Shown: positions 5,219-51,318 of the stretch, piece after piece
How the letters are laid out: every line of letters begins with the position of its first letter
How positions within the stretch are numbered: position 1 is the first letter of the stretch
NCBI RefSeq assembly: GCF_014695975.1
Contig: NZ_JACJPI010000058.1
Span: forward strand, 496,001 to 560,000
Reading direction: 5' to 3'
Length of the DNA stretch: 64,000 nucleotides
DNA from: Leptolyngbya sp. FACHB-321
GTDB taxonomy: Bacteria; Cyanobacteriota; Cyanobacteriia; Leptolyngbyales; Leptolyngbyaceae
Made by a program: the position numbers and the translations under genes
The notes under the pieces: model-generated
What the model was told of the DNA's origin: nothing
Databases searched by the model: none
Seen by the model: the letters and a program-made list of their open reading frames with translations, nothing else

Positions 5219-8200
5219 ATGGCAAGAATTTTAATTGTTGAAGATGAGATTGTGGCTGCCTTAATGATTCGAGCTTTTTTGGAGCATTCGGAACATACGG
5301 TTGTAGGAAGTGTGACATCAGGAACGGAAGCCGTTCGACTGGCAGCCGAAACACAACCTGATCTCGTTCTTATGGATATTTCGCTTGAGGGTGGGCTGGA
5401 TGGCATTGCTGCCGCGACTCAAATTCATGAGCAGTTGGGCATTCCTATCATCTACCTCACAGCAAATGCCGAAGACCAAACACTTCAGCGTGCGGTGGCT
5501 ACGGAGCCCTTTGGCTATCTCGTTAAACCCTTTAATCAGGTTGGGCTGCATACAACTATCAATATTGCGCTGCGTCGCTACCAGTTGGAGCAACAGCTTG
5601 AGCAAGCCGAACAATGGTTGGCAACGACATTAGCCAGTATTGGTGATGGCACGATCGCCACGGATGAGTATGGCTGCATCACGTTTATGAATGCAGTTGC
5701 AGAGCACCTTACTGGCTGGCAGCAGTCAGAAGCATTAGGTGCCTCTGCTGAATTGGTATTGCGTCTAATCCATGCAGAGACACGAGAAACGATCGAAAAC
5801 CCGCTTTTGCAGGCAATCCGTCAGGGAGCCAGTGTCAGTATCTCTGAGCATTGTTTGCTGCAAACCAAGAATGGCTTAGAACGAGCGATCGGTGACACGG
5901 CTGCACCTATTCGCAATGACAAGGGTGAAATTACGGGTGGTGTCTTGATTTTTCAAGATGTAACCGAACGGCGGCAAGCCGAAGCGCTCTTACACCGTCG
6001 CCAGGAAGAATTTAGGGCACTGGTGGAAAACTCTCCCGATATTGTGGTGCGCTTTGATCGGGAGTTTCGCCACGTTTACGTCAATCCGGCAGTCGAGGTG
6101 GCAACTGGCATTGCTGTAGAAGCCTTTATTGGACGCACCAACGCCGAGATGGGAATGCCCACCGAGTTAGTGGAATCTTGGCGTGAGACGCTGCAAGCCG
6201 TGCTAGATACGAGTCAGGAGCAAATTATTGAGTTTCAGTTTTCGACCCCCTCTGGTTTAAGGGTTTATCAAGCGCGGATTGTGCCGGAGTTCAGCCAGGA
6301 TGGCAGCGTCGACTTTTTGCTATGTGTCAGTCGCGACATTACGGAGTACAAGCGGGCAGAAGCCCTTTTACGCCAGCAGGCTGAACGGGAGCGCCTATTG
6401 GTAGCGATCGCGCAACGGGTACGTCAGTCGCTTGAGTTGGATGAGATTCTCAACACAACAGTTACAGAGGTACGCCAACTGCTCCAGACCGATCGCGTGA
6501 TCATTTATCGGTTCGAGCCAGATTGGAGTGGCTTTGTCATTGTGGAATCAGTCGGAGATGGCTGGATTCCCATGCTGGGGCGACGCCTTTTTGACCCCTG
6601 TTTGGCGATGGCGGACTGTTTGATCCCTTATGCAAACGGCAACATTAGTAGCATTGATGATCTAGAAAATGCGGGGTTAGCTGAGTGCTATGTTGGTCTA
6701 CTCAGGCAATTTCAGGTAAAAGCAAATCTAGTTATTCCAGTGCTGCTGCCTCCAAGTCAAGTGAACCGGAATGAAGATGGGCTAGGGCATCTGTGGGGCT
6801 TACTAGCGGTGCAGCAATGTGCGGCACCCCGCCAGTGGGATGAGTTAGAGATTGACCTACTCAAAAAGCTGTCGGCTCAGGTTGCGGTCGCCATCCACCA
6901 AAGCTACCTCTATCAGCAAACGCAGCAGCAGGCAAGGCAAGAACAAGCGCTGAGTCGAGTCATTCAGGCAATTCGCAACTCACTAGATCTCACGACAATT
7001 TTCCAAACAGCTGTTATGGAAATGGGAAGTTTGCTTCAGGTTGAACAAGCAAACATTTTGCAATATTTACCAGAGCAAGGTGTTTGGGTCCATCAAGCTA
7101 GCTATCGCCAAAGCCCAGATCTTGCACCCGTTGGCTTAGATGTAGTGGGGCTAGAAATTCCTGATGAGGGCAACCCCATTACGGCACGGTTAAAACAACT
7201 GGAAATTGTGCGGCTCGATGATGCCAGCACGATCGCTCATGAAATGACTCAAATTCTAGCGCAAACCTTTCCGGGCGCATGGCTGGCAGTGCCCTTGCAG
7301 ATGAACGGTGCCGTCTGGGGCAACATCACACTGATTCATGGACCAGAACCCTTTGTTTGGCAAGACTGGCAAATTGAGCTCACCCGTGCCGTTGGGGATC
7401 AGTTGGCGATCGCCATTCAGCAGTCGCAGCTTTATCAACAAGTGCAGCAACTCAATGCCCGTTTGGAAGAGCAGGTGCAGGAACGCACTCTCCTCTTGCA
7501 ACAAGCCTTTAGCTTTGAAGCAACGTTAAAGCGGATTGCTGAGCGGGTGCGTGACAGCTTGGACGAAGACCAAATTTTACGGGCAGTCGTAGAAGAACTC
7601 GCTGTCACACTGGCTATAAGCCGATGTAGCGTAGCTGTTTACGATCTACCTCAGCGCGCAGTGAATGTGCGCTACGAATATACGACGGCGGTAGAGAGCC
7701 TTCAAGGTCGCCTGATTCCCATGTCGCAGTTTCCAGAAGTTTACCAGCAGCTACTAGAGGGACAGCATTTTCAGTACTGTAATGTGGATGCGCGACCGAT
7801 TCAAGAACACGTAGTACGGTTAGCGTGTCCTATCGTTGATGATCAGTCTGTGTTAGGAGATTTGCGACTCGTCAACTATGCGGGTTACGTTTTTTCGGAG
7901 CAGGAAGTCCGCCTGGTGCAGCAGGTCGCCAATCAGTGTGCGATCGCCCTGCGGCAGTCACGTCTCTATCAAGCAGCACAAGCGCAAGTCGATGAACTAG
8001 AACGGCTCAATCAGCTCAAAGACGACTTTGTGAGCACCGTTTCGCACGAACTGCGTACACCGATGTCCAGTATCAGAATGGCGATTCAAATGCTAGAAGT
8101 TGTGCTGTTGCAAACTGAAGACGGGCGATCGCGCAATGCCGCAGATCCATCTTCACTAGTGTTGCAGCCAGAGTCTTTTCAACGTGCAGCCCGCTATGTT

Positions 8201-36062: not shown

Positions 36063-37514
36063 ATGAATGTCGAAGGGACAAGCAAAAATCACAATAGCCA
36101 ACCGTTTCCAAAGGAAAGAGGTGGGTTAAAGCAGGAAGGAGACTCCGAGCGAGATCCTCAACCGCCACGTAAAGGGTGGCGGCGCTTTTTAGTGCCTGCC
36201 CTCATTGTGGCGGCAATTTTAGGGGGCGTTGGCTGGATTGTGTTCAATCGGTTCATCATGCCAATACTGATCTTCAGCAGCATGAAACCACAGCTAACTG
36301 AGGTCGAGTTATCGTTGCCAAGGACAGCATCGATCGCGGATAGCTCAGACTATGCAGCTAACCTTGATTCACGACAGTCTGTCACTTTGCAGCCACGGGT
36401 ATCTGGTCAGATTGCAGCCATCTATGTCAAAGCTGGCGATCGCGTTGAGGCAGGCACACCCATTATTCAAATTGATGCCGCTCAACAGCGTGCCCAAGTT
36501 GCCGGTCGTGATGCCGCAGTAGAGTCAGCCGCAACTGACATCACTGCGGCGCAGGCGGAGGTCGTTAGTGCTAGAGAAACGCTGCGATCGTTACAGGCAA
36601 GACGGATCGCAAATTTGTCTGACGTTCAGTTGAACCAGAGCGAATATCAGCGCTACCAGGATCTATTTACTCAAGGAGCCAGCAGCAAGCAAGTGCTTGA
36701 CCAAAGGCTAAATGCGCTGCAAACCGCGCGGGCAAACCTCAGCCAAACAGAGGCAGATATCCAGGCGCAGCAGTCAATCATTTCGCGATCGCAGGCAACT
36801 GTTGCAAAAAACCAGCGTGCCTTACAGCAAGCACAGGCAAATGTGACCGAAGGGCAGGCAGAGCTTCAGTACTACACCATCAAAGCTCCTTTTTCGGGAG
36901 TAGTTGGAAACATTCCTGTTAAGGTAGGCGATTTCGTCGATAATGCATCCCCACTGCTCCGCATTACGCAGAATGAGCAGCTTGAGGTGCAAATGCAAAT
37001 TCCTCTAGAACGGTCTTCTGCTCTACGCTTGGGGTTGCCTGTGCAATTACTGGATGAGAAAGGTAAGGTGTTGCAAACCGGTAAGCTATCTTTTATTGCG
37101 CCCGATGTTGACGCATCTACACAGTCTGTACAAGCAAAAGCGGTGTTTAACAATTCGAGCGGCGCACTGCGAACCTCACAGTTTGCTCGCGTCAGGGTTG
37201 TTTGGGCAACTCGTCCAGGCGTTTTAGTACCAACGACTGCCATTTCGCGCTTAGCCGGTAAGAATTTTGTGTTTGTTGGTACGCCGTTCAAGGCATCGGG
37301 CTGCAAAGCCGCCTCGGCAGGAGAGGGGGCACCGCCACCGACCAATGTTGACCCTAACCAACTGGTCATAGCTCAAAAGCCAGTGCAGCTAGGCAGGATT
37401 GTTGGCAACGACCAGGAAGTGCTAGACGGTCTTAGTGCCAGCGATCGCATTGCCACTTCCGGCATCCTGAGCCTGCAAAATTGTTTGCTCATCCAAGCGG
37501 CAGCACCAAAGTAA
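36063..37514 (+). CDS. RND efflux periplasmic adaptor (membrane fusion protein)
   Basis: 483 residues. The cytoplasmic N-terminus is followed by one membrane helix (about 41-70) and no lipobox, so it is anchored by a helix. The lipoyl half-motif VSGQIAAIYVKAGDRVEAGTPI, a long coiled-coil hairpin (about 145-265, rich in Gln/Ala), the second lipoyl half (LQYYTIKAPFSGVVGNIPVKVGD) and a beta-barrel with RLGLPVQL follow. This is the HlyD/AcrA layout. It pairs with the RND pump 103 bp downstream on the same strand. The outer-membrane TolC partner is not in the window. Confidence 0.93.
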   Translation: MNVEGTSKNHNSQPFPKERGGLKQEGDSERDPQPPRKGWRRFLVPALIVAAILGGVGWIVFNRFIMPILIFSSMKPQLTEVELSLPRTASIADSSDYAANLDSRQSVTLQPRVSGQIAAIYVKAGDRVEAGTPIIQIDAAQQRAQVAGRDAAVESAATDITAAQAEVVSARETLRSLQARRIANLSDVQLNQSEYQRYQDLFTQGASSKQVLDQRLNALQTARANLSQTEADIQAQQSIISRSQATVAKNQRALQQAQANVTEGQAELQYYTIKAPFSGVVGNIPVKVGDFVDNASPLLRITQNEQLEVQMQIPLERSSALRLGLPVQLLDEKGKVLQTGKLSFIAPDVDASTQSVQAKAVFNNSSGALRTSQFARVRVVWATRPGVLVPTTAISRLAGKNFVFVGTPFKASGCKAASAGEGAPPPTNVDPNQLVIAQKPVQLGRIVGNDQEVLDGLSASDRIATSGILSLQNCLLIQAAAPK

Positions 37515-37617
37515 TGTTTACGGTTTAACCTGATTGGGCTAGCAGGCAGTCGCCTTTCTGTAGTCCATAATCTCTCACCTCTGACAGCGGGCAGTTTCCT
37601 CAGGACACCTGTGCTTT

Positions 37618-40600
37618 ATGATTCTCTCCATTTCAACCTTTTTTATTCGTCGTCCTATCTTTGCGACGGTTTGCTCGATCGTGGTGACGCTCTTAGGGAT
37701 TGCGTGTATTCCAACACTGCCGATCGCTCAGTATCCCGATATTGCGCCGCCACAGGTAACGGTTACGTCTAACTACATTGGTGCTAGCGCGGAAACGGTC
37801 GAATCAACCGTGACCAATATCCTAGAGCGAGAACTAAACGGCATCAGTGACTTGCGGTATATCAAGTCTACAAGTGCTAACGACGGTACCAGCATCATCA
37901 ACCTGACGTTTGGACTCGGTCGCAACCAGGATCTAGCAGCGGTAGATGTGCAGAATAAGGTGTCGACGGTGCAATCGCGCTTACCGGGTCCTGTGACCCA
38001 AACAGGTGTCCAGGTAGCAAAAGCGAACAGCAACTTCTTGCTAGCGATCGGAATTTATTCCGATCGGGACGAAAAAACAGGACAGGACGTCTACGACAGT
38101 ACCTACCTCAGCAATTACGCCGATCTCTATTTAGTAGATGCACTCAAGCGGATTAAAGGTGTAGGGGGTGTGCAAACGTTTGGCGAACGGAAATACGCCA
38201 TGCGTCTTTGGGTTGACCCAGAGCGCCTCGCCAGTCGTGGACTGACAGCCCAGGATGTCATCACAGCACTGCAACAGCAAAACCTCCAGGTTGGTGCAGG
38301 GCAAATCGGGCAACCACCTGTTGATGATGGACAGCAATATCAGTATGCCGTCACCGCTCAGGGGCGCTTTAAGAATGCGGAGGAATTCAACGATCTGGTT
38401 GTAAAAACAACCGAAACCGGCACTCTGGTCAAACTGCGGGATGTGGGTCGAGCCGAACTAGGGGCTGAAAACTATGGGTCTCTCCTGCGCTTCACCCCTA
38501 AAGATCGCATTACACACCAGGGCATTGGGCTTGGTATTACTCAACAATTTGGCAGTAATGCGCTGGATGCTGCTCAGGCTGTCAAAGATGAAATGAAGCG
38601 TCTAGAGGCAAGCTTTCCACCTGGAATGCGTTACGCTGTTGCCTTTGACACTACGACATTTATTGAAGCGGGCGCAGAAGAGGTTGTTGTTTCGCTAATC
38701 CTGTCGATTGGGTTAGTGGTACTCATTATCTTTATCTTCTTGCAGAGCTGGAGATCGGCGCTCATTGCCTCAATTACTATTCCAGTCGGTTTGCTCGGCA
38801 CCTTTGTCTTTGTGAAGCTGTTTGGTTTCTCCATCAACACACTGACTCTCTTTGCCTTAACGCTAGCAACTGGGTTGGTGGTGGATGATGCGATCGTTAT
38901 TGTGGAAGACATTACTCGACGCATTCAGGAGGATGGAATGCGACCGCTAGATGCGGCAATTGCCTCTATGGACGCGTTGACGGGTGCCGTGATTGCCACC
39001 TCCATTGTGCTTATGACGGTTTTTGTGCCCGTTGCCTTTTTCCCTGGCACTACAGGGCAGCTTTACAAGCAGTTTGCGTTGACGATCGCCTTTTCAGTTG
39101 GTGTTTCATCCTTTAGCGCCATCATCCTTACACCAACTCTGTCGGCGCTTTTGCTACGACGCGGACAGATGCCCGATAACTGGTTCTTTAATCGAATTAA
39201 CTCAGCTATTGACAGCACTCGGCATCGTTACATTCGTTCACTGGATGGTCTCACACGACGTAAAGGGCTGGTCGTTGGACTGTTTGCAGGCGCATTGGCA
39301 CTAACGTACTGGGTCTATACGATCGTGCCAGGAGGGTTTATCCCCGATGAAGATCAGGGCTATTTCATCACGATTGTCCAGGCACCTGAAGGCGTGTCGC
39401 TCAATTACACCCGTGATGTACTGGAGAAAGCTGAGGCGATCTTGAAGCAGCAGCCAGAAATTGAAAATATTTTTGCGGTCGGCGGCTTTAGCTTCAGTGG
39501 TTCAACCCCAAACAACGGCTTGATTTTTACAACCCTCAAACCTTGGGGCGAACGCAAACAAGCCGAGCAATCGGTGAAGTCTATTATTGGCGGCTTTTTC
39601 CCAAAACCATCGGGGCTGTTCCCCCAGATGCTAGGTATCAAAGAAGCAATAGTCATTCCGGTCGCGCCGCCAGCCTTACAGGGTGTAGGGAATTTTGGTG
39701 GCTTCGATTTTCAACTGCAAGATCGCACTGGGCTAGGGTTTGATGTGCTGGGTGAGAACCTCAACAAGTTTATGGGTCGTGCTGCGACCTATCCTTCAGC
39801 AGACAAACCCCTGCTGGCTGGCTTACGCCCCACCTTTAATGCAAACACGCCGCAAATCTCGGTGGAGGTCGATCGTACGCGGGCAAACCAACTTCAGGTG
39901 CCGCTACAGGATATTTTCAACACGCTGCAAACGTCGTTGGGTTCAACGTACGTTAATGACTTCAACCAGTTTGAACGCACCTATCGAGTGTATGTGCAGG
40001 CTGACCAGCAGTTTCGCTCAAACCCTGAAGATATTAAGCGGCTGTATGTGCGATCGCAGACGGGCAGGATGATTCCGCTTAGTAACTTGGTGACCATTAC
40101 TCAGACGATCGGTCCGTCTATCATCACCCACTACAATCTGTATCGCTCCGTTGAAATTACTGGTGCCGGTGCACCGGGCGTTAGTTCAGGGCAGGCGCTA
40201 CAAGCAATGGAAGCGGTGGCAAAAGAAACACTACCTAGAGGCTTCGGTTATCAATGGTCTGGGTTATCGCTGGAAGAAATTGAGTCTGGCGGCAGTGCCA
40301 TCTTTATCTTTGCGCTGGGGGTTGTCTTCGTTTACCTCACCCTGGCAGCTCAGTACGAAAGCTACATTGATCCTTTCATTATTCTGCTGACGGTGCCGCT
40401 GGCAATTCTGGGCGCGTTGGTTGCAATTTTGCTGAACGGCACGGCTAACGATGTTTACACCCAGATTGGCTTTGTCATGCTGATCGGGATGGCAAGTAAA
40501 AACGGTATTCTCATCGTGGAATTTGCGAATCAGCTCTATGAGGAAGGATGGAGCATTACAAAAGCAGCAGTGGAAGCATCGCAAGAGCGACTACGACCAA

Positions 40601-40881
40601 TTTTGATGACTGCCATCTCTGCGATCGTGGGTGCCGTGCCCCTTCTCATTGCAACGGGTGCAGGTGCTGCCGCTCGTCGATCGTTGGGCGCAGCAACCGT
40701 CGGTGGGATGTGCGTTGCTACAGTGCTCAGCCTGTTTGTCGTACCTATCCTTTACATCGTCATTAAAACAGCTGAAGCGCGTTACCGTCGTGGACCTTAT
40801 AAACCCGCGAGCGCAAGCGGTCCCGATACGGAACCTGATAGTTCGACCCCTACCAGTAAGGAAGCTACCTCTAAGCGTTAG
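37618..40881 (+). CDS. RND efflux pump inner-membrane subunit (HAE1 family)
   Basis: 1087 residues, typical for AcrB-type proton-driven pumps. It opens with FFIRRPIFATVCSIVVTLLGI and has the two large periplasmic loops. TM4 carries GLVVDDAIVIVED with the paired aspartates needed for proton relay. The second half has FIPDEDQGYF, VEVDRTRANQLQVPLQDIF, LTLAAQYESYIDPFIILLTVPLAILGAL and GMASKNGILIVEFANQL. The substrate is unclear; HAE1 members export hydrophobic and amphiphilic compounds. The C-terminal tail of about 30 residues is Ser/Thr/Glu-rich and likely disordered. Confidence 0.96.
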   Translation: MILSISTFFIRRPIFATVCSIVVTLLGIACIPTLPIAQYPDIAPPQVTVTSNYIGASAETVESTVTNILERELNGISDLRYIKSTSANDGTSIINLTFGLGRNQDLAAVDVQNKVSTVQSRLPGPVTQTGVQVAKANSNFLLAIGIYSDRDEKTGQDVYDSTYLSNYADLYLVDALKRIKGVGGVQTFGERKYAMRLWVDPERLASRGLTAQDVITALQQQNLQVGAGQIGQPPVDDGQQYQYAVTAQGRFKNAEEFNDLVVKTTETGTLVKLRDVGRAELGAENYGSLLRFTPKDRITHQGIGLGITQQFGSNALDAAQAVKDEMKRLEASFPPGMRYAVAFDTTTFIEAGAEEVVVSLILSIGLVVLIIFIFLQSWRSALIASITIPVGLLGTFVFVKLFGFSINTLTLFALTLATGLVVDDAIVIVEDITRRIQEDGMRPLDAAIASMDALTGAVIATSIVLMTVFVPVAFFPGTTGQLYKQFALTIAFSVGVSSFSAIILTPTLSALLLRRGQMPDNWFFNRINSAIDSTRHRYIRSLDGLTRRKGLVVGLFAGALALTYWVYTIVPGGFIPDEDQGYFITIVQAPEGVSLNYTRDVLEKAEAILKQQPEIENIFAVGGFSFSGSTPNNGLIFTTLKPWGERKQAEQSVKSIIGGFFPKPSGLFPQMLGIKEAIVIPVAPPALQGVGNFGGFDFQLQDRTGLGFDVLGENLNKFMGRAATYPSADKPLLAGLRPTFNANTPQISVEVDRTRANQLQVPLQDIFNTLQTSLGSTYVNDFNQFERTYRVYVQADQQFRSNPEDIKRLYVRSQTGRMIPLSNLVTITQTIGPSIITHYNLYRSVEITGAGAPGVSSGQALQAMEAVAKETLPRGFGYQWSGLSLEEIESGGSAIFIFALGVVFVYLTLAAQYESYIDPFIILLTVPLAILGALVAILLNGTANDVYTQIGFVMLIGMASKNGILIVEFANQLYEEGWSITKAAVEASQERLRPILMTAISAIVGAVPLLIATGAGAAARRSLGAATVGGMCVATVLSLFVVPILYIVIKTAEARYRRGPYKPASASGPDTEPDSSTPTSKEATSKR

Positions 40882-46049: not shown

Positions 46050-48245
46050 ATGCTAAACGCACTGATGATGGTCTCAAATGCCTTCATCTCGTTAAGTTAT
46101 TTCATCATTGCTTCCTTACTACTGCTGCCCTTCTTGAAGGGAAAGCAAAAGACATCACTGGTATTAGTCACGATTCTGGTGTTTTTTAGTTGCGCTTTGG
46201 GGCATGGTGGACACGTCTTGCTCATGCTAGAGCAGGGGCATCAAACTCGTACCTCGCTCTTGCTGCCACTTCAAGTAGGAATTGATCTAAGCACCGCCAT
46301 GCTTGCGGGAATCTATATTGCATTACGGCACTCTTATGCCTTCTTAATTGATGGACCTTTGCTGTTGACGCAGACTCAAGACCAATTAACAGAAACGCTA
46401 GACGTACTAGCGCATATGAATGACAATTTAGAGTCAATGGTTCAAACCCGCACAACGGCACTGTCTAAGGCGAATGAGCAATTAGAATACGAGATTGCGA
46501 AACGCAAGCAAGCAGAGACGGCTTCGCAGCAGCTTTTAGAGCAGTCCGAACAACAAGCGCAACTCCTGCGTACCGTGATCGACTCAACCCCTGACTGGAT
46601 CTTTGCTAAAGACCACAACTTTCGCTACATCTTTGTTAACCAGGGGTATGCGTCTGCACTCAATCAAACACCAGAGATGATGCTGGGTAAGGATGACCTG
46701 GAGTTGGGTTTTCCTGAAGAACTAGTTTTAGGGAATCTTGAGCAAGGCAGAGAAGGTTTTCGGGCGGATGACCAGCGTGTCTTAGCCGGTCAAATCATTC
46801 ATAATCCCCATGATCCAGCGACTGATGCTAATGGTTTCTTACATATTTTTGATACTCAAAAATTTCCCTTATTTGATGCCAAAGGTCAGATTTTTGCAGT
46901 TCTGGGTTTCGCTCGCGATATCACCAGGCACAAGCAGGCAGAAAAGGCACTTCAGGAAAGTGAGGGTCGACTACAGGCAATTTTAGATAACTCGCCTGCC
47001 GTGATTTACTTGAAAGACACTGAAGGGCGCTTCCTCTCAGCCAATCGGCAATTCCAAACCATCTTTCGCTTGAGCCAGACTGAAATTGTTGGGAAGAGCA
47101 ACTACGATATTTTTCCGCCTGCTTTAGCCGCCGCCTTTCATGCGAATGACCAAAGTGTCCTGCAAGCAGGCGCCGCGATTCAGTGGGAAGAAGAGGCTCT
47201 ACAGGAAGATGGCTTGCACACTTACCTATCACTAAAATTTCCCCTGTTTGATGCCGACGGGAATGCCTATGCAGTTTGCGGTATGTCTACTGATATTACA
47301 GAGCGCAAGCAAACAGAGGTGGCGTTGCAACAATCGGAAGCGCAACTGCGAGAAAAAGCACGGCAACTTGAACAAACCTTGCTGGAATTGCGGCGGACTC
47401 AAACGCAACTCGTACAGACTGAAAAGATGTCTAGCTTAGGGCAACTTGTTGCTGGCGTAGCCCACGAGATTAATAATCCGGTCAACTTTATTTATGGCAA
47501 TCTGATTCCTGCGGGTGACTATATTCAGGACTTACTTCAACTGTTGGCACTTTATCAGCAGCATTACCCAAAGCCGCTGCCAATGATCGAAGCTGAGATT
47601 GCGGCGATCGACCTTAACTTTATTGTTGCTGACCTGCCCAAACTGCTGTCATCAATGAAAATAGGTGCAGAGCGTATTCGCCAAATTGTGCTGACTTTAC
47701 GCAACTTCTCACGCTTAGATGAGGCTGAACGTAAGACAGTGAACCTTCATGAAGGGATTGATAGCACCCTGCTCCTGCTGCAACATCGGTTTAAAGCCAA
47801 ACCAGACCAGATAAAAATTACAGTGCTTAAAGACTATGCTGACCTGCCTTTAGTTGAATGCTATGCTGGACAGCTCAATCAGGTATTGATGAATCTGCTG
47901 ACCAATGCGATTGATGCATTGGAAGAAAAATACGCTGAAGAGCCGACTCAAATCGCTCTCCCAACCATTCATATTCAAACGGAACTGTTGAATTCAGAGT
48001 GGGTTCGCATTCAAATAGCAGACAATGGTGCAGGTATCCCAGAAGCTATTCAACCACGTTTATTTGACCCGTTCTTTACAACAAAAGCGATCGGTCAAGG
48101 TACAGGGTTAGGGCTATCAATTAGCTATCAGATCGTGACTGAAACGCATGGAGGTAAGCTGCAATATCAGTCTACACCGCAGCAAGGAACAACCTTTATG
48201 ATTGATCTGCCTCTTAGACATTTGCACAAAAGTCATGAAAAGTAA
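46050..48245 (+). CDS. Sensor histidine kinase with ethylene-receptor-like three-helix domain, PAS-PAS
   Basis: About 731 residues from ATG 46050; the frame opens at 45759 and another ATG lies at 45921, so the start is uncertain. Three membrane helices lie near residues 5-100, followed by a coiled coil, PAS about 170-295, PAS about 300-420, HisKA with His472 in GVAHEINNPVNF, and an HATPase with DNGAGIPEAIQ and GTGLGLSISYQI. In the first two helices the spacing Asn10-x6-Tyr17 and Cys48-x3-His52 follows the Asp25/Tyr32 and Cys65/His69 pattern of plant ETR1, with Asn replacing Asp and similar surrounding residues (SNAFISLSYF). It is therefore a divergent ethylene-binding-like sensor, or a related redox/metal membrane sensor. 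No response regulator is adjacent. Confidence 0.88.
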   Translation: MLNALMMVSNAFISLSYFIIASLLLLPFLKGKQKTSLVLVTILVFFSCALGHGGHVLLMLEQGHQTRTSLLLPLQVGIDLSTAMLAGIYIALRHSYAFLIDGPLLLTQTQDQLTETLDVLAHMNDNLESMVQTRTTALSKANEQLEYEIAKRKQAETASQQLLEQSEQQAQLLRTVIDSTPDWIFAKDHNFRYIFVNQGYASALNQTPEMMLGKDDLELGFPEELVLGNLEQGREGFRADDQRVLAGQIIHNPHDPATDANGFLHIFDTQKFPLFDAKGQIFAVLGFARDITRHKQAEKALQESEGRLQAILDNSPAVIYLKDTEGRFLSANRQFQTIFRLSQTEIVGKSNYDIFPPALAAAFHANDQSVLQAGAAIQWEEEALQEDGLHTYLSLKFPLFDADGNAYAVCGMSTDITERKQTEVALQQSEAQLREKARQLEQTLLELRRTQTQLVQTEKMSSLGQLVAGVAHEINNPVNFIYGNLIPAGDYIQDLLQLLALYQQHYPKPLPMIEAEIAAIDLNFIVADLPKLLSSMKIGAERIRQIVLTLRNFSRLDEAERKTVNLHEGIDSTLLLLQHRFKAKPDQIKITVLKDYADLPLVECYAGQLNQVLMNLLTNAIDALEEKYAEEPTQIALPTIHIQTELLNSEWVRIQIADNGAGIPEAIQPRLFDPFFTTKAIGQGTGLGLSISYQIVTETHGGKLQYQSTPQQGTTFMIDLPLRHLHKSHEK

Positions 48246-48471: not shown

Positions 48472-51318
48472 ATGCTGTCACAACAAGACGCTACACTACC
48501 TCTTACTCAGGAAGCGTTACTCCACCGTATTGCCAATCGCATTCGCCAATCCTTAGAGCTTGAGACGATCTTAAGTACGACAGCAGCAGAAGTTCGCGCT
48601 TACTTGGGCACCGATCGAGTCAAAATTTATCAATTCCGACCAGATGAGCACGGGGTTGTTGTAGCAGAGTCACTGCAAGGCGATCGCTTGCCATCGCTTT
48701 TAGGGCTGCACTTTCCCGCAGACGATATTCCACGTTACGCCCGTGAACTGTTTATACGCGCGCGGCAGCGTTCGATCGTGGATCTTGGTAGCCATGAGAT
48801 TGGTATTAGTCCACTCAACTGTCCCGAAACCGGAGAAGCGATCACCACGGCTGATATTCGGTACCGTCCCGTTGATCCGTGCCATCGCGAGTACCTGACA
48901 GCGATGGGAGTCAAATCCTCTGTCGTGGTGCCGATCGTGCTTGAAGGCGAAGCTGCTGGATCGTACAACCTGCCTTCACTCCAGTCTTCCAAGCAACTTT
49001 GGGGGCTTTTAGTCTCACATCACGCTAATCCTCGTGTTGTCACAGAAGCAGAGCTGCAATTTATTCAGGCAGTAGTAGACCAGGTAGCGGTTGCCATTGC
49101 TCAATCGGTTTTGCTGGAGCAGGTGCGTGCTCAGGCACGCCAAGAAGCCAATATGAATCAAGTTACGGCACAGCTACAAATGTCTCCGACGGTCAATTGG
49201 CAGGATGCACTTGAAGCAGCTTCGGACACCCTTAGTGCAGGTGGTCGGTTGTATCTCTTTGGAGATAGTTGTTCACCAAAAGAAATTTACACTAATGGGG
49301 AGCAGCCCGCTCTCATTGATCCCGCCCAGAACCGTTCAATTGAAGAGAACTTGCTATGGCAGCAATATCTACACTCTGCCTTGGAGCAGCCTTCGGATGA
49401 AACAGGGCATAAACCCTGGTCGGTTGAGTGGATGCGAGCCGTCTACGAACTGGCAGACCCTGCTCATAACTTCAAGCCGATCGCGTCATCTTGGGCAGTG
49501 AATGATCTTTATAAAGAGCCTTTATGCCGCACCCTTGCTCCCTTCTTTGATGGCACAAGCATTCGCAGCGCTCTCATTATTCCTCTTAAGCACGGTGCCC
49601 AAATCATTGGCTGCTTAACCTTCTTCCGTAGCGAAATACAGACAGAAACTCAGTGGGCTGGGTACCACGATCCAGATACACGTCAGTTGATGCCGCGTCA
49701 ATCCTTTGAAGGCTGGCGGCAACTTAAGAAAGGACAGGCACAGCACTGGACAGAAGAAGAGATCAAGTATGCTCAGGCTCTCGGAGAACGCTTTGCGGCA
49801 ACAATCAAACAGTATCGGCTGTATCAGCAGGTGCAAGCGCTCAACACCAACTTAGAACGACAAGTAGAAGAGCGAACAGAAGCACTCAAACAGCAATCTG
49901 GGCAACTTCAGCAGTCCAATACCGAGCTAGAACGGGTAGTGGAACGGCAAATGACACTGTCTCGAATCGTTGCCAAAATTCGTGAATCCCTAGACATCGA
50001 CACAATCTTTCAAACTGCCACGCAGGAACTAAATACTGTCCTCAAGGCAGAGCGCGTTGCCGTTTATCGCTTTAATGCCGATTGGGGAGGAGAGTTTGTC
50101 AGCAATTACGAAGCCGTTGCACCTGAATGGCAAAGCAATGGACAGCTTGGGGTAAATACCGTTTGGAACGATACACACCTACAAGACACTCAAGGCGGTC
50201 GATACCGCACAGGTGCTAACTCAGTTGTACATGACATTTACCAGCAGGGTTACGCTCAGTGTCATCTTGACCTCCTTGAACAGTTCCAAGTGAGGGCATT
50301 TATGGCTATTCCCATCTTTGCCGGTCAAACGCTGTGGGGCTTACTGGGTGTTTACCAACACTCTGCGACTCGTCAATGGAGAACGTCTGAAATTAAGTTT
50401 GTCAGCCACATTGCAGAACAATTGGGAGTTGCCCTGCAACATGCAGAGTTGCTAGCTCAGACACGACATCAGGCTGACCAATTGGCACAGACCTTGAATG
50501 ATTTGAAGCAAACACAAGTGCAGTTATTCCATAGTGAGAAGATGTCTAGCCTGGGACAATTAGTTGCTGGAATTGCCCATGAGGTGAATAATCCCATCAA
50601 CTTTATTGGTGGCAATCTAACTCACATCCATGAGTATACTCACACTTTATTGAAGCTGCTCCAGGCTTACCAGCAACAGATACCAACCCCATCACCAGAT
50701 TTGCTTCAGCTTTTGGAAGACAGCGATTTAGCTTATATTGAAGAAGATTTTCCTAAGCTCTGCGCCTCAATGCGGATGGGAACTGAGCGCATTCGAGAGA
50801 TTGTTCAATCGTTGCGGAATTTTTCACGGGTAGATGAAGCGGAGGTAAAAGCGGTAGACCTGCATGAGGGTCTAGAAAGTACGCTCTTGATCTTGCAGCA
50901 TCGCTTGAAATTAGTTTCGGGTACACCGATCGAGATTGAAAAGCACTACGAAACCTTACCTCCAGTTCATTGTCATGCAGGGCAACTCAATCAGGTGTTT
51001 ATGAATTTGATTGGTAATGCGATCGATGAATTAGAGACCACTGAAAAAGACCACCCAGTTTCCAGAGTAGTGACTGTTTCAACCCGTTGTGCTGAGGCTG
51101 GCTGGGTAGAGGTCTCGATTAAGGATAATGGTCGCGGCATAGCAGAAGATATTCAAGCCAAGCTGTTTGATCCTTTCTTTACCACCAAGCCGATGGGAAA
51201 AGGCACCGGGTTGGGCTTATTCATTAGCTACCAAATCATTGAAAAGCATGGGGGACAGTTAATCTGTCAGTCCCAACCAGAGCAGGGGACCGAGTTTATC
51301 ATTAAATTGCCTTGTTAA
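48472..51318 (+). CDS. GAF-GAF-GAF histidine kinase with two candidate bilin-binding GAFs
   Basis: 948 residues, soluble. GAF1 (about 15-215) is phytochrome-like without an N-terminal PAS: PADDIP at 82-87 and RPVDPCHREYL with Cys137-His138. GAF2 (about 235-455) contains a long insert and no canonical Cys. A coiled coil leads to GAF3 (about 495-665) with VWNDTHLQDTQGGRYR (Trp565, Asp567) and QCHLDLLEQFQVRAF (Cys597-His598). The 32-residue Trp-Cys spacing equals that of the red/green cyanobacteriochrome AnPixJ GAF2. HisKA has His703 in GIAHEVNNPINF; the HATPase ends with GTGLGLFISYQI. Light sensing, probably red/green plus red or far-red, is a strong inference. It lies 226 bp after another kinase on the same strand. 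Confidence 0.93.
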   Translation: MLSQQDATLPLTQEALLHRIANRIRQSLELETILSTTAAEVRAYLGTDRVKIYQFRPDEHGVVVAESLQGDRLPSLLGLHFPADDIPRYARELFIRARQRSIVDLGSHEIGISPLNCPETGEAITTADIRYRPVDPCHREYLTAMGVKSSVVVPIVLEGEAAGSYNLPSLQSSKQLWGLLVSHHANPRVVTEAELQFIQAVVDQVAVAIAQSVLLEQVRAQARQEANMNQVTAQLQMSPTVNWQDALEAASDTLSAGGRLYLFGDSCSPKEIYTNGEQPALIDPAQNRSIEENLLWQQYLHSALEQPSDETGHKPWSVEWMRAVYELADPAHNFKPIASSWAVNDLYKEPLCRTLAPFFDGTSIRSALIIPLKHGAQIIGCLTFFRSEIQTETQWAGYHDPDTRQLMPRQSFEGWRQLKKGQAQHWTEEEIKYAQALGERFAATIKQYRLYQQVQALNTNLERQVEERTEALKQQSGQLQQSNTELERVVERQMTLSRIVAKIRESLDIDTIFQTATQELNTVLKAERVAVYRFNADWGGEFVSNYEAVAPEWQSNGQLGVNTVWNDTHLQDTQGGRYRTGANSVVHDIYQQGYAQCHLDLLEQFQVRAFMAIPIFAGQTLWGLLGVYQHSATRQWRTSEIKFVSHIAEQLGVALQHAELLAQTRHQADQLAQTLNDLKQTQVQLFHSEKMSSLGQLVAGIAHEVNNPINFIGGNLTHIHEYTHTLLKLLQAYQQQIPTPSPDLLQLLEDSDLAYIEEDFPKLCASMRMGTERIREIVQSLRNFSRVDEAEVKAVDLHEGLESTLLILQHRLKLVSGTPIEIEKHYETLPPVHCHAGQLNQVFMNLIGNAIDELETTEKDHPVSRVVTVSTRCAEAGWVEVSIKDNGRGIAEDIQAKLFDPFFTTKPMGKGTGLGLFISYQIIEKHGGQLICQSQPEQGTEFIIKLPC

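Follow-up and report, generated by a model that had tools for sequence, protein, structure and literature searches.

A cyanobacterial group of ethylene-receptor-like sensor kinases with a linked set of replaced residues, possibly sensing a ligand other than ethylene

The 64,000-nucleotide stretch of Leptolyngbya sp. FACHB-321 DNA analyzed here (the window) contains a sensor kinase gene whose N-terminal helices resemble those of the plant ethylene receptor ETR1, with Asn in place of a key Asp. This raises the question of whether the protein is an ethylene receptor or whether the same fold serves another ligand. The initial annotation had left the choice between an ethylene-sensor variant and a membrane sensor branch for copper or another ligand. 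Homology to the ethylene-binding domain was established, and the evidence favors the second option, because the domain belongs to a separate group in which the residues equivalent to Asp25, Pro36, Ile62 and Lys91 of ETR1 are all replaced. The best explanation, to which we assign a probability of about 0.48, is an ETR1-fold sensor kinase with a site that probably binds Cu(I) and is tuned to a ligand or state other than ethylene.

The gene (Table 1) codes for three membrane helices followed by a coiled coil, two PAS domains and a HisKA/HATPase module. The ATG at 46050 is preferred as its start because Met was present at that place in all 11 close relatives aligned (ML(N/D) in nine of them); a longer frame from TTG 45759 did not have this support. 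The body is that of a PAS sensor histidine kinase, with scores of 144 bits for PAS_4 and 97.3 bits for HATPase_c and with the H-box AHEINNP, while HisKA scored 18.8 bits, below its Pfam cut-off of 26.9. Given that AHEINNP (His472), DNGAGIP and GTGLGLS are all present, the kinase looks active by its motifs. Two PAS stretches in place of the usual GAF domain, pointed out in the initial annotation, were indeed found; however, they do not set the protein apart, because a PAS domain following the ethylene-binding domain is not unusual in bacteria and is described for AzoEtr1 and GeiEtr2 (PMC11819568, PMC6682694).

Table 1. Positions of the sensor kinase gene, its domains and key residues, and the downstream kinase gene in the window
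Feature	Position	Strand	Remarks
Sensor histidine kinase gene, 731 aa	46050..48245	+	ATG start at 46050
Helix 1, aa 2-29	46053..46136	+	AlphaFold2 model
Asn10, at ETR1 Asp25	46077..46079	+	Asn in 42/42 non-redundant group rows
Tyr17, at ETR1 Tyr32	46098..46100	+	Kept
Ala21, at ETR1 Pro36	46110..46112	+	Pro in none of the group
Helix 2, aa 36-62	46155..46235	+	AlphaFold2 model
Phe45, at ETR1 Ile62	46182..46184	+	Phe in 42/42 group rows
Cys48, at ETR1 Cys65	46191..46193	+	Copper ligand in ETR1
His52, at ETR1 His69	46203..46205	+	Copper ligand in ETR1
His55, at ETR1 position 72	46212..46214	+	Added His; Glu/Asp in 37/45 canonical rows
Helix 3, running on into signaling helix, aa 71-115	46260..46394	+	AlphaFold2 model; less sure than helices 1 and 2
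Gln75	46272..46274	+	Kept in 40/42 group rows
Asp79, at ETR1 Lys91	46284..46286	+	
First PAS domain	46563..46934	+	Limits by eye; two PAS_4 and two sensory-box stretches; STPDWIF at aa 179
Second PAS domain, aa 312-421	46983..47312	+	PF08448
H-box AHEINNP, putative phospho-accepting His472	47460..47480	+	Motif; HisKA weak
HATPase_c catalytic domain, aa 608-723	47871..48218	+	PF02518, 97.3 bits; DNGAGIP and GTGLGLS motifs
Histidine kinase, two GAF domains and PHY region	48472-51318	+	No Pfam PAS match; DPCHREYL stretch

Against the Pfam model of the ethylene-binding domain (PF25487, ETR1_N; curated cut-off 27 bits), the window domain remained below the cut-off in all settings, scoring 16.3 bits in the whole protein, 20.9 bits in the genome search and 21.2 bits when scanned alone (E 3.5e-4). 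Taken alone, a match of this size would be weak: with E allowed up to 10, the model also matched 11 of the 14 genomes used as controls. When the window domain and 18 relatives were each scanned singly, 18 of the 19 matched ETR1_N at E up to 1 (best 6.1e-7), and the next family matched just two. Profile-profile comparison (hhalign) with 50 canonical domains gave a probability of 97% both for 26 group rows (E 2e-11) and for 62 (E 9e-11, score 61.9); when nine canonical rows (Asn-bearing, basal or divergent) were removed, the probability was 92.6% (E 5e-7). In controls, the best of 100 column-shuffled profiles scored 17.9 and the reversed profile 11.9 versus the real 61.9; circular shifts scored up to 56.9 and were uninformative, because most of the alignment stays intact in them. 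The margin over shuffles and the ETR1_N matches in 18 of 19 domains rule out chance or unrelated helices, and the profile comparison proposed earlier did not place the helices in an unrelated family. Thus, the window domain is homologous to the ethylene-binding domain. The profile of the relatives also found three loci detected by ETR1_N (G163, G052 and G214; E 1e-5 to 0.0024), whose scores were helped by the Asn that all three carry. Six domains of the host genome exceed the ETR1_N cut-off; a seventh match, that of the window gene, is weaker (E 0.0021 in the genome search).

Residues were placed by register to canonical bacterial domains, and ETR1 positions were assigned by residue number rather than by an alignment of the ETR1 sequence itself. 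This numbering is Asp25, Tyr32, Ile35, Pro36, Ile62, Cys65, His69, position 72 and Lys91, and the first seven are presumably the seven residues required for ethylene binding by ETR1. It agrees with residues named in several papers (PMC6586836, PMC11819568, PMC8879215 and PMC12643061); Y32, F61, I62, C65 and H69 are among the residues named. PMC6682694 gives the number of residues needed for ethylene binding as seven, PMC6586836 lists I35, P36, I62, C65 and H69 as essential, and PMC11819568 names D25 and C65.

In this register, Asn10 corresponds to Asp of canonical domains, Phe45 to Ile, Cys48 to Cys, His52 to His, His55 to Glu or Asp, and Asp79 to Lys. The pattern recognized in the initial annotation, SNAFISLSYF (residues 9-18, nucleotides 46074-46103) and CALGH (residues 48-52, nucleotides 46191-46205), is real, and its spacings of seven between Asn10 and Tyr17 and four between Cys48 and His52 were confirmed in frame. 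Conservation of Cys, His and Tyr and replacement of Asp25 by Asn were correctly seen; in addition, Ile20 is the equivalent of Ile35, so that four of the seven residues required in ETR1 remain in the window protein. What had been missed are the changes at the places of Pro36, Ile62, residue 72 (where the added His55 lies one turn past the His69 equivalent) and Lys91. Asn, the change noted previously, is one of a linked set, because Asp25, Pro36, Ile62 and Lys91 are all replaced in the group.

We examined the distribution of this domain in several ways. A single-domain scan of genomes of 84,980 species, which sees only places that match short exact peptides, yielded 17 loci, all in cyanobacterial records. 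Twelve of them, from Calothrix, Dulcicalothrix and a Leptolyngbyaceae bin, were 58-65% identical to the window domain, and five were at 30-37% identity. Within the order of the window, the single-sequence query matched one of 42 genomes (its own) and gave no match in the 41 others, six of the same genus included, at E up to 0.001. In the profile search, at least nine of 386 genomes of the phylum (Cyanobacteria, judging from the named relatives) matched below 1e-30, among at least 16 at E up to 0.01, and in the order of G131 at least 43 of 368 genomes matched at E up to 1e-6; the two genome sets overlap, and all these counts are lower bounds because no more than 12 candidates per genome were scored. 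Nine of the 16 genomes carry the group, four (G163, G052, G214 and G268) have Asn-bearing canonical-type domains, and the remaining three (G211, G150 and G170) had weak f31 matches. Small f31 genomes also accounted for 11 of the 21 genomes matched in one search and were treated as chance: ten of these matches sit in one multi-helix membrane protein of 365-388 residues without the motif, and the eleventh (L046) has stops. Another candidate, L033, was dropped because of stops. Queries with two of the domains found nothing on plasmids at E up to 0.01, and of the 20 stretches that fitted the pattern in viral contigs none was confirmed. GC content was 0.459 for the gene and 0.495 for the window, and composition gave no clear signal of recent acquisition.

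The group comprises 62 sequences of the same phylum, corresponding to 42 non-redundant rows. In a tree of 87 non-redundant rows and 117 columns, the 42 group rows split off at 100/100 branch support, although the tree is unrooted and based on few columns, and long branches meet at the group/canonical split (a program warning). The window domain therefore does not fall among canonical domains, and five Asn-bearing canonical rows are scattered on the canonical side. This tree indicates that Asn at the Asp25 place is no oddity of the window gene: a separate group shares it.

Residue counts were made on the 42 non-redundant group rows, with identical rows left out, and on 45 canonical rows, from which L025 (a member of the group), three fragments (L004, on the minus strand, L100 and L111) and the duplicate L087 had been dropped. 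Since 24 of the 62 group rows come from one genus, counts within the group are not independent events; the 62 also include two partial rows, L018, whose frame contains a stop, and L024, whose frame does not include helix 1, seen as two gaps at position 10. All group rows have Asn at position 10, where canonical domains have Asp (40) or Asn (5). Position 21 is Ala (23), Ser (11), Gly (7) or Thr (1) in the group versus Pro in 40 of 45 canonical rows, and position 45 is always Phe versus Ile in 41 of 45. In ETR1, Ile62Phe is the etr1-4 mutation, which reportedly abolishes binding. His55 is present in 38 of 42 group rows, where Glu (22) or Asp (15) prevails in canonical domains; Gln75 in 40 of 42, against canonical Ser (32) or Ala (7); and Asp79 in 38 of 42, against canonical Lys (42) or Arg (2). 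Compared to ETR1, a carboxylate has shifted from helix 1 to helix 3. At position 16, just before the conserved Tyr, Cys was found in 35 of 42 group rows and Ser in the window protein. Cys48 and His52 were kept in 38 and 40 of 42 group rows, versus 41 and 44 of 45 canonical rows, and both are invariant in a set of 19 domains whose identity falls to 28%, evidence in favor of a functional site.

Seven of the 62 group rows do not have at least one of Cys48, His52, His55 and Asp79, implying that the four-residue site is not required everywhere. L154 and L155 (genomes G497 and G508) have lost all four, yet retain the Asn and Tyr, and L154 also retains HisKA and HATPase_c; these are possible non-metal descendants. 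Cys is absent from L147 and L148 and falls in a gap in L150, whereas L152 and L153 lost His55 and Asp79. L147 and L150-L153 (family code f46) form a branch of motif decay, in which L151 still has all four residues. In addition, several group genes in Calothrix and Halomicronema records appear to be broken by a stop or frame change (L018 4375-4983, L015 5947-8130 and L024).

A domain outside the group was informative with regard to the linked changes. L099 (genome G057) has Asn, Ala, Phe and Asp at the places of residues 25, 36, 62 and 91 and is the only canonical row with Asp at the Lys91 place. L163, which is 61% identical to L099, has Asn, Pro, Ile and Arg at these places (register checked by alignment). 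The comparison, within a single lineage, suggests that Pro36, Ile62 and Lys91 may be exchanged jointly where Asn has already taken the place of Asp25.

AlphaFold2 modeling on 16 rows produced three helices (mean pLDDT 80.8, pTM 0.57). From residue 61 on, blocks have pLDDT of 61-85, and the model is less reliable for helix 3, which bears Asp79, than for the other helices. An N terminus on the outside is suggested by the basic loop 1 (KGKQK). Judged from this loop and the helix limits, Asn10, His55 and Asp79 lie 8, 7 and 8 residues from the outer helix ends, in one layer, and Cys48 and Tyr17 are deeper, at about 14-15 residues; contacts among these residues are predicted from helix positions only. 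Searches with the window protein, the group profile and the model (ETR1 was not a query) did not retrieve a solved structure for any domain of this type: profile comparison gave two weak GPCR matches only (E 0.17 and 0.29) and fold comparison no match under E 0.9.

PMC11819568 predicts that Asp25, the helix-1 carboxylate of ETR1, holds His69 in position and forms a bridge with Lys91 of helix 3. In the window protein, the helix-3 carboxylate Asp79 would face the amide of Asn10 and the added His55. Cys48 and His52 may still bind a metal in the buried site, most probably Cu(I), and His55 could serve as a third ligand, whereas the second shell and pocket appear to have been rebuilt for a ligand or state other than ethylene; with Phe45 present and the proline of helix 1 absent, the ethylene pocket would be filled or differently shaped. 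The sensed input could be copper itself or a different small molecule that is lipophilic or gaseous. Its binding would shift helix 3, a continuous helix towards the PAS pair and kinase, presumably in a dimer that acts on a partner protein. A sensor of this kind is suggested because the likely copper-binding residues are kept and several of those required for ethylene have been exchanged jointly. Against this reading, loss of Asp25 could weaken or abolish copper binding, given that the essential copper site of ETR1 includes Asp25 itself (PMC12643061). A broader proposal, which we put forward tentatively and consider somewhat less probable, is that the ethylene-receptor fold has a second class of ligand, sensed by this group through a membrane metal site of the form Cys-x3-His-x2-His with the carboxylate on helix 3 instead of helix 1, and that its pocket set arose again in L099.

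We favor this metal-bound, non-ethylene sensor over two other possibilities. The protein could be a true ethylene receptor with lower affinity or a faster off-rate, in which Cu(I) on Cys48 and His52 binds ethylene and Asn substitutes for Asp. Retention of Cys, His and the equivalents of Tyr32 and Ile35 is consistent with this idea, as is the occurrence of Asn in five of the 45 non-redundant canonical domains, three of which keep Pro36 and Ile62. Azhar et al. are also said to have reported in PNAS in 2023 that the D25N form of ETR1 still works at lower affinity and that Asn variants occur in nature, and Asn alone is therefore not new. However, of the seven residues that ETR1 presumably requires, three (Asp25, Pro36 and Ile62) have changed together, along with Lys91. 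Moreover, the tree does not unite the group with the Asn-bearing canonical domains, six other domains of the host genome already exceed the ETR1_N cut-off, and mutation of D25 eliminates binding by AtETR1 (PMC11819568). An ethylene receptor is thus unlikely.

Also unlikely, and ranked after it, is a cofactor-free membrane sensor, whose buried polar Asn-His-Gln-Asp network would respond to pH, membrane state or quinone and whose Cys and His would be structural remnants. It could account for the rows that have lost one or more of the four site residues and for preservation of Asn10 even in L154 and L155, which have lost Cys and His, but the retention of Cys48 and His52, almost as high as among canonical domains, speaks against it. 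Two strongly conserved histidines within a membrane helix might also point to haem bound through His52 or His55 of two protomers; this is highly improbable, considering that the homologous domain is a Cu(I) site and that the Cys is in register.

The gene neighborhood was analyzed as well. A divergent DUF6816 gene lies upstream, and 226 bases downstream, on the same strand, is a GAF-PHY-GAF histidine kinase whose DPCHREYL stretch resembles the bilin-binding site of phytochromes. No response regulator adjoins the window gene, and no metal-handling gene was found among its nine neighbors in the window or ten recurrent neighbors of the relatives. Clustering revealed no conserved neighborhood beyond neighbors common to near relatives; ten of these common families are glyoxalase, recombinase, CLC channel, mannosyltransferase, PBP, MscS, amine oxidase, AAA, pentapeptide and one unnamed. 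Elsewhere in the window (36063-40881, plus strand), two adjacent genes resemble, by eye, the membrane fusion protein and pump of an RND efflux system. In L148, a single receiver-domain protein (5382-5765, minus strand) directly precedes the group kinase and probably acts as its partner there. Just upstream of L157 and L160 (genomes G515 and G553, of one genus) are genes for ABC transporter components (solute-binding protein and permeases). Bodies of the relatives vary, with one PAS domain in L010, two in L012, no PAS match in L022 and L025, PAS and GAF in L148, and at least seven PAS stretches in L161, where the frame is cut by the end of the stretch. In L161 and other g31 genomes, the domain heads very long open frames of up to 2108 residues.

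A group that keeps the copper ligands and changes Asp25, Pro36, Ile62, residue 72 and Lys91 together offers a ready swap set, which bears on how ETR1 discriminates ethylene from other small molecules, and it may reveal another bacterial small-molecule sense. No description of a group with this linked residue set was found in the literature searched, which consisted of open-licence papers.

Like ETR1 of Arabidopsis, SynEtr1/UirS, GeiEtr1/2 and AzoEtr1, the window protein has three N-terminal helices ahead of a histidine kinase, with the equivalents of Tyr32, Ile35, Cys65 and His69 in register and that of Thr94 kept. Unlike these receptors, it has Asn for Asp25, Ala for Pro36, Phe for Ile62, His at position 72 and Asp for Lys91, scores under the Pfam cut-off, belongs to a separate tree group and has no adjacent response regulator that we could see. 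Four canonical-type domains (L071, L085, L088 and L090) share its Asn at position 25; in contrast to the window protein, all four keep Lys or Arg at position 91, and L071, L085 and L088 also keep Pro36 and Ile62. L099 differs from the window domain in scoring over the Pfam cut-off (73.5 bits), in having Asp at position 72 and in its place among canonical domains (weak support), but has the same Asn, Ala, Phe and Asp at positions 25, 36, 62 and 91.
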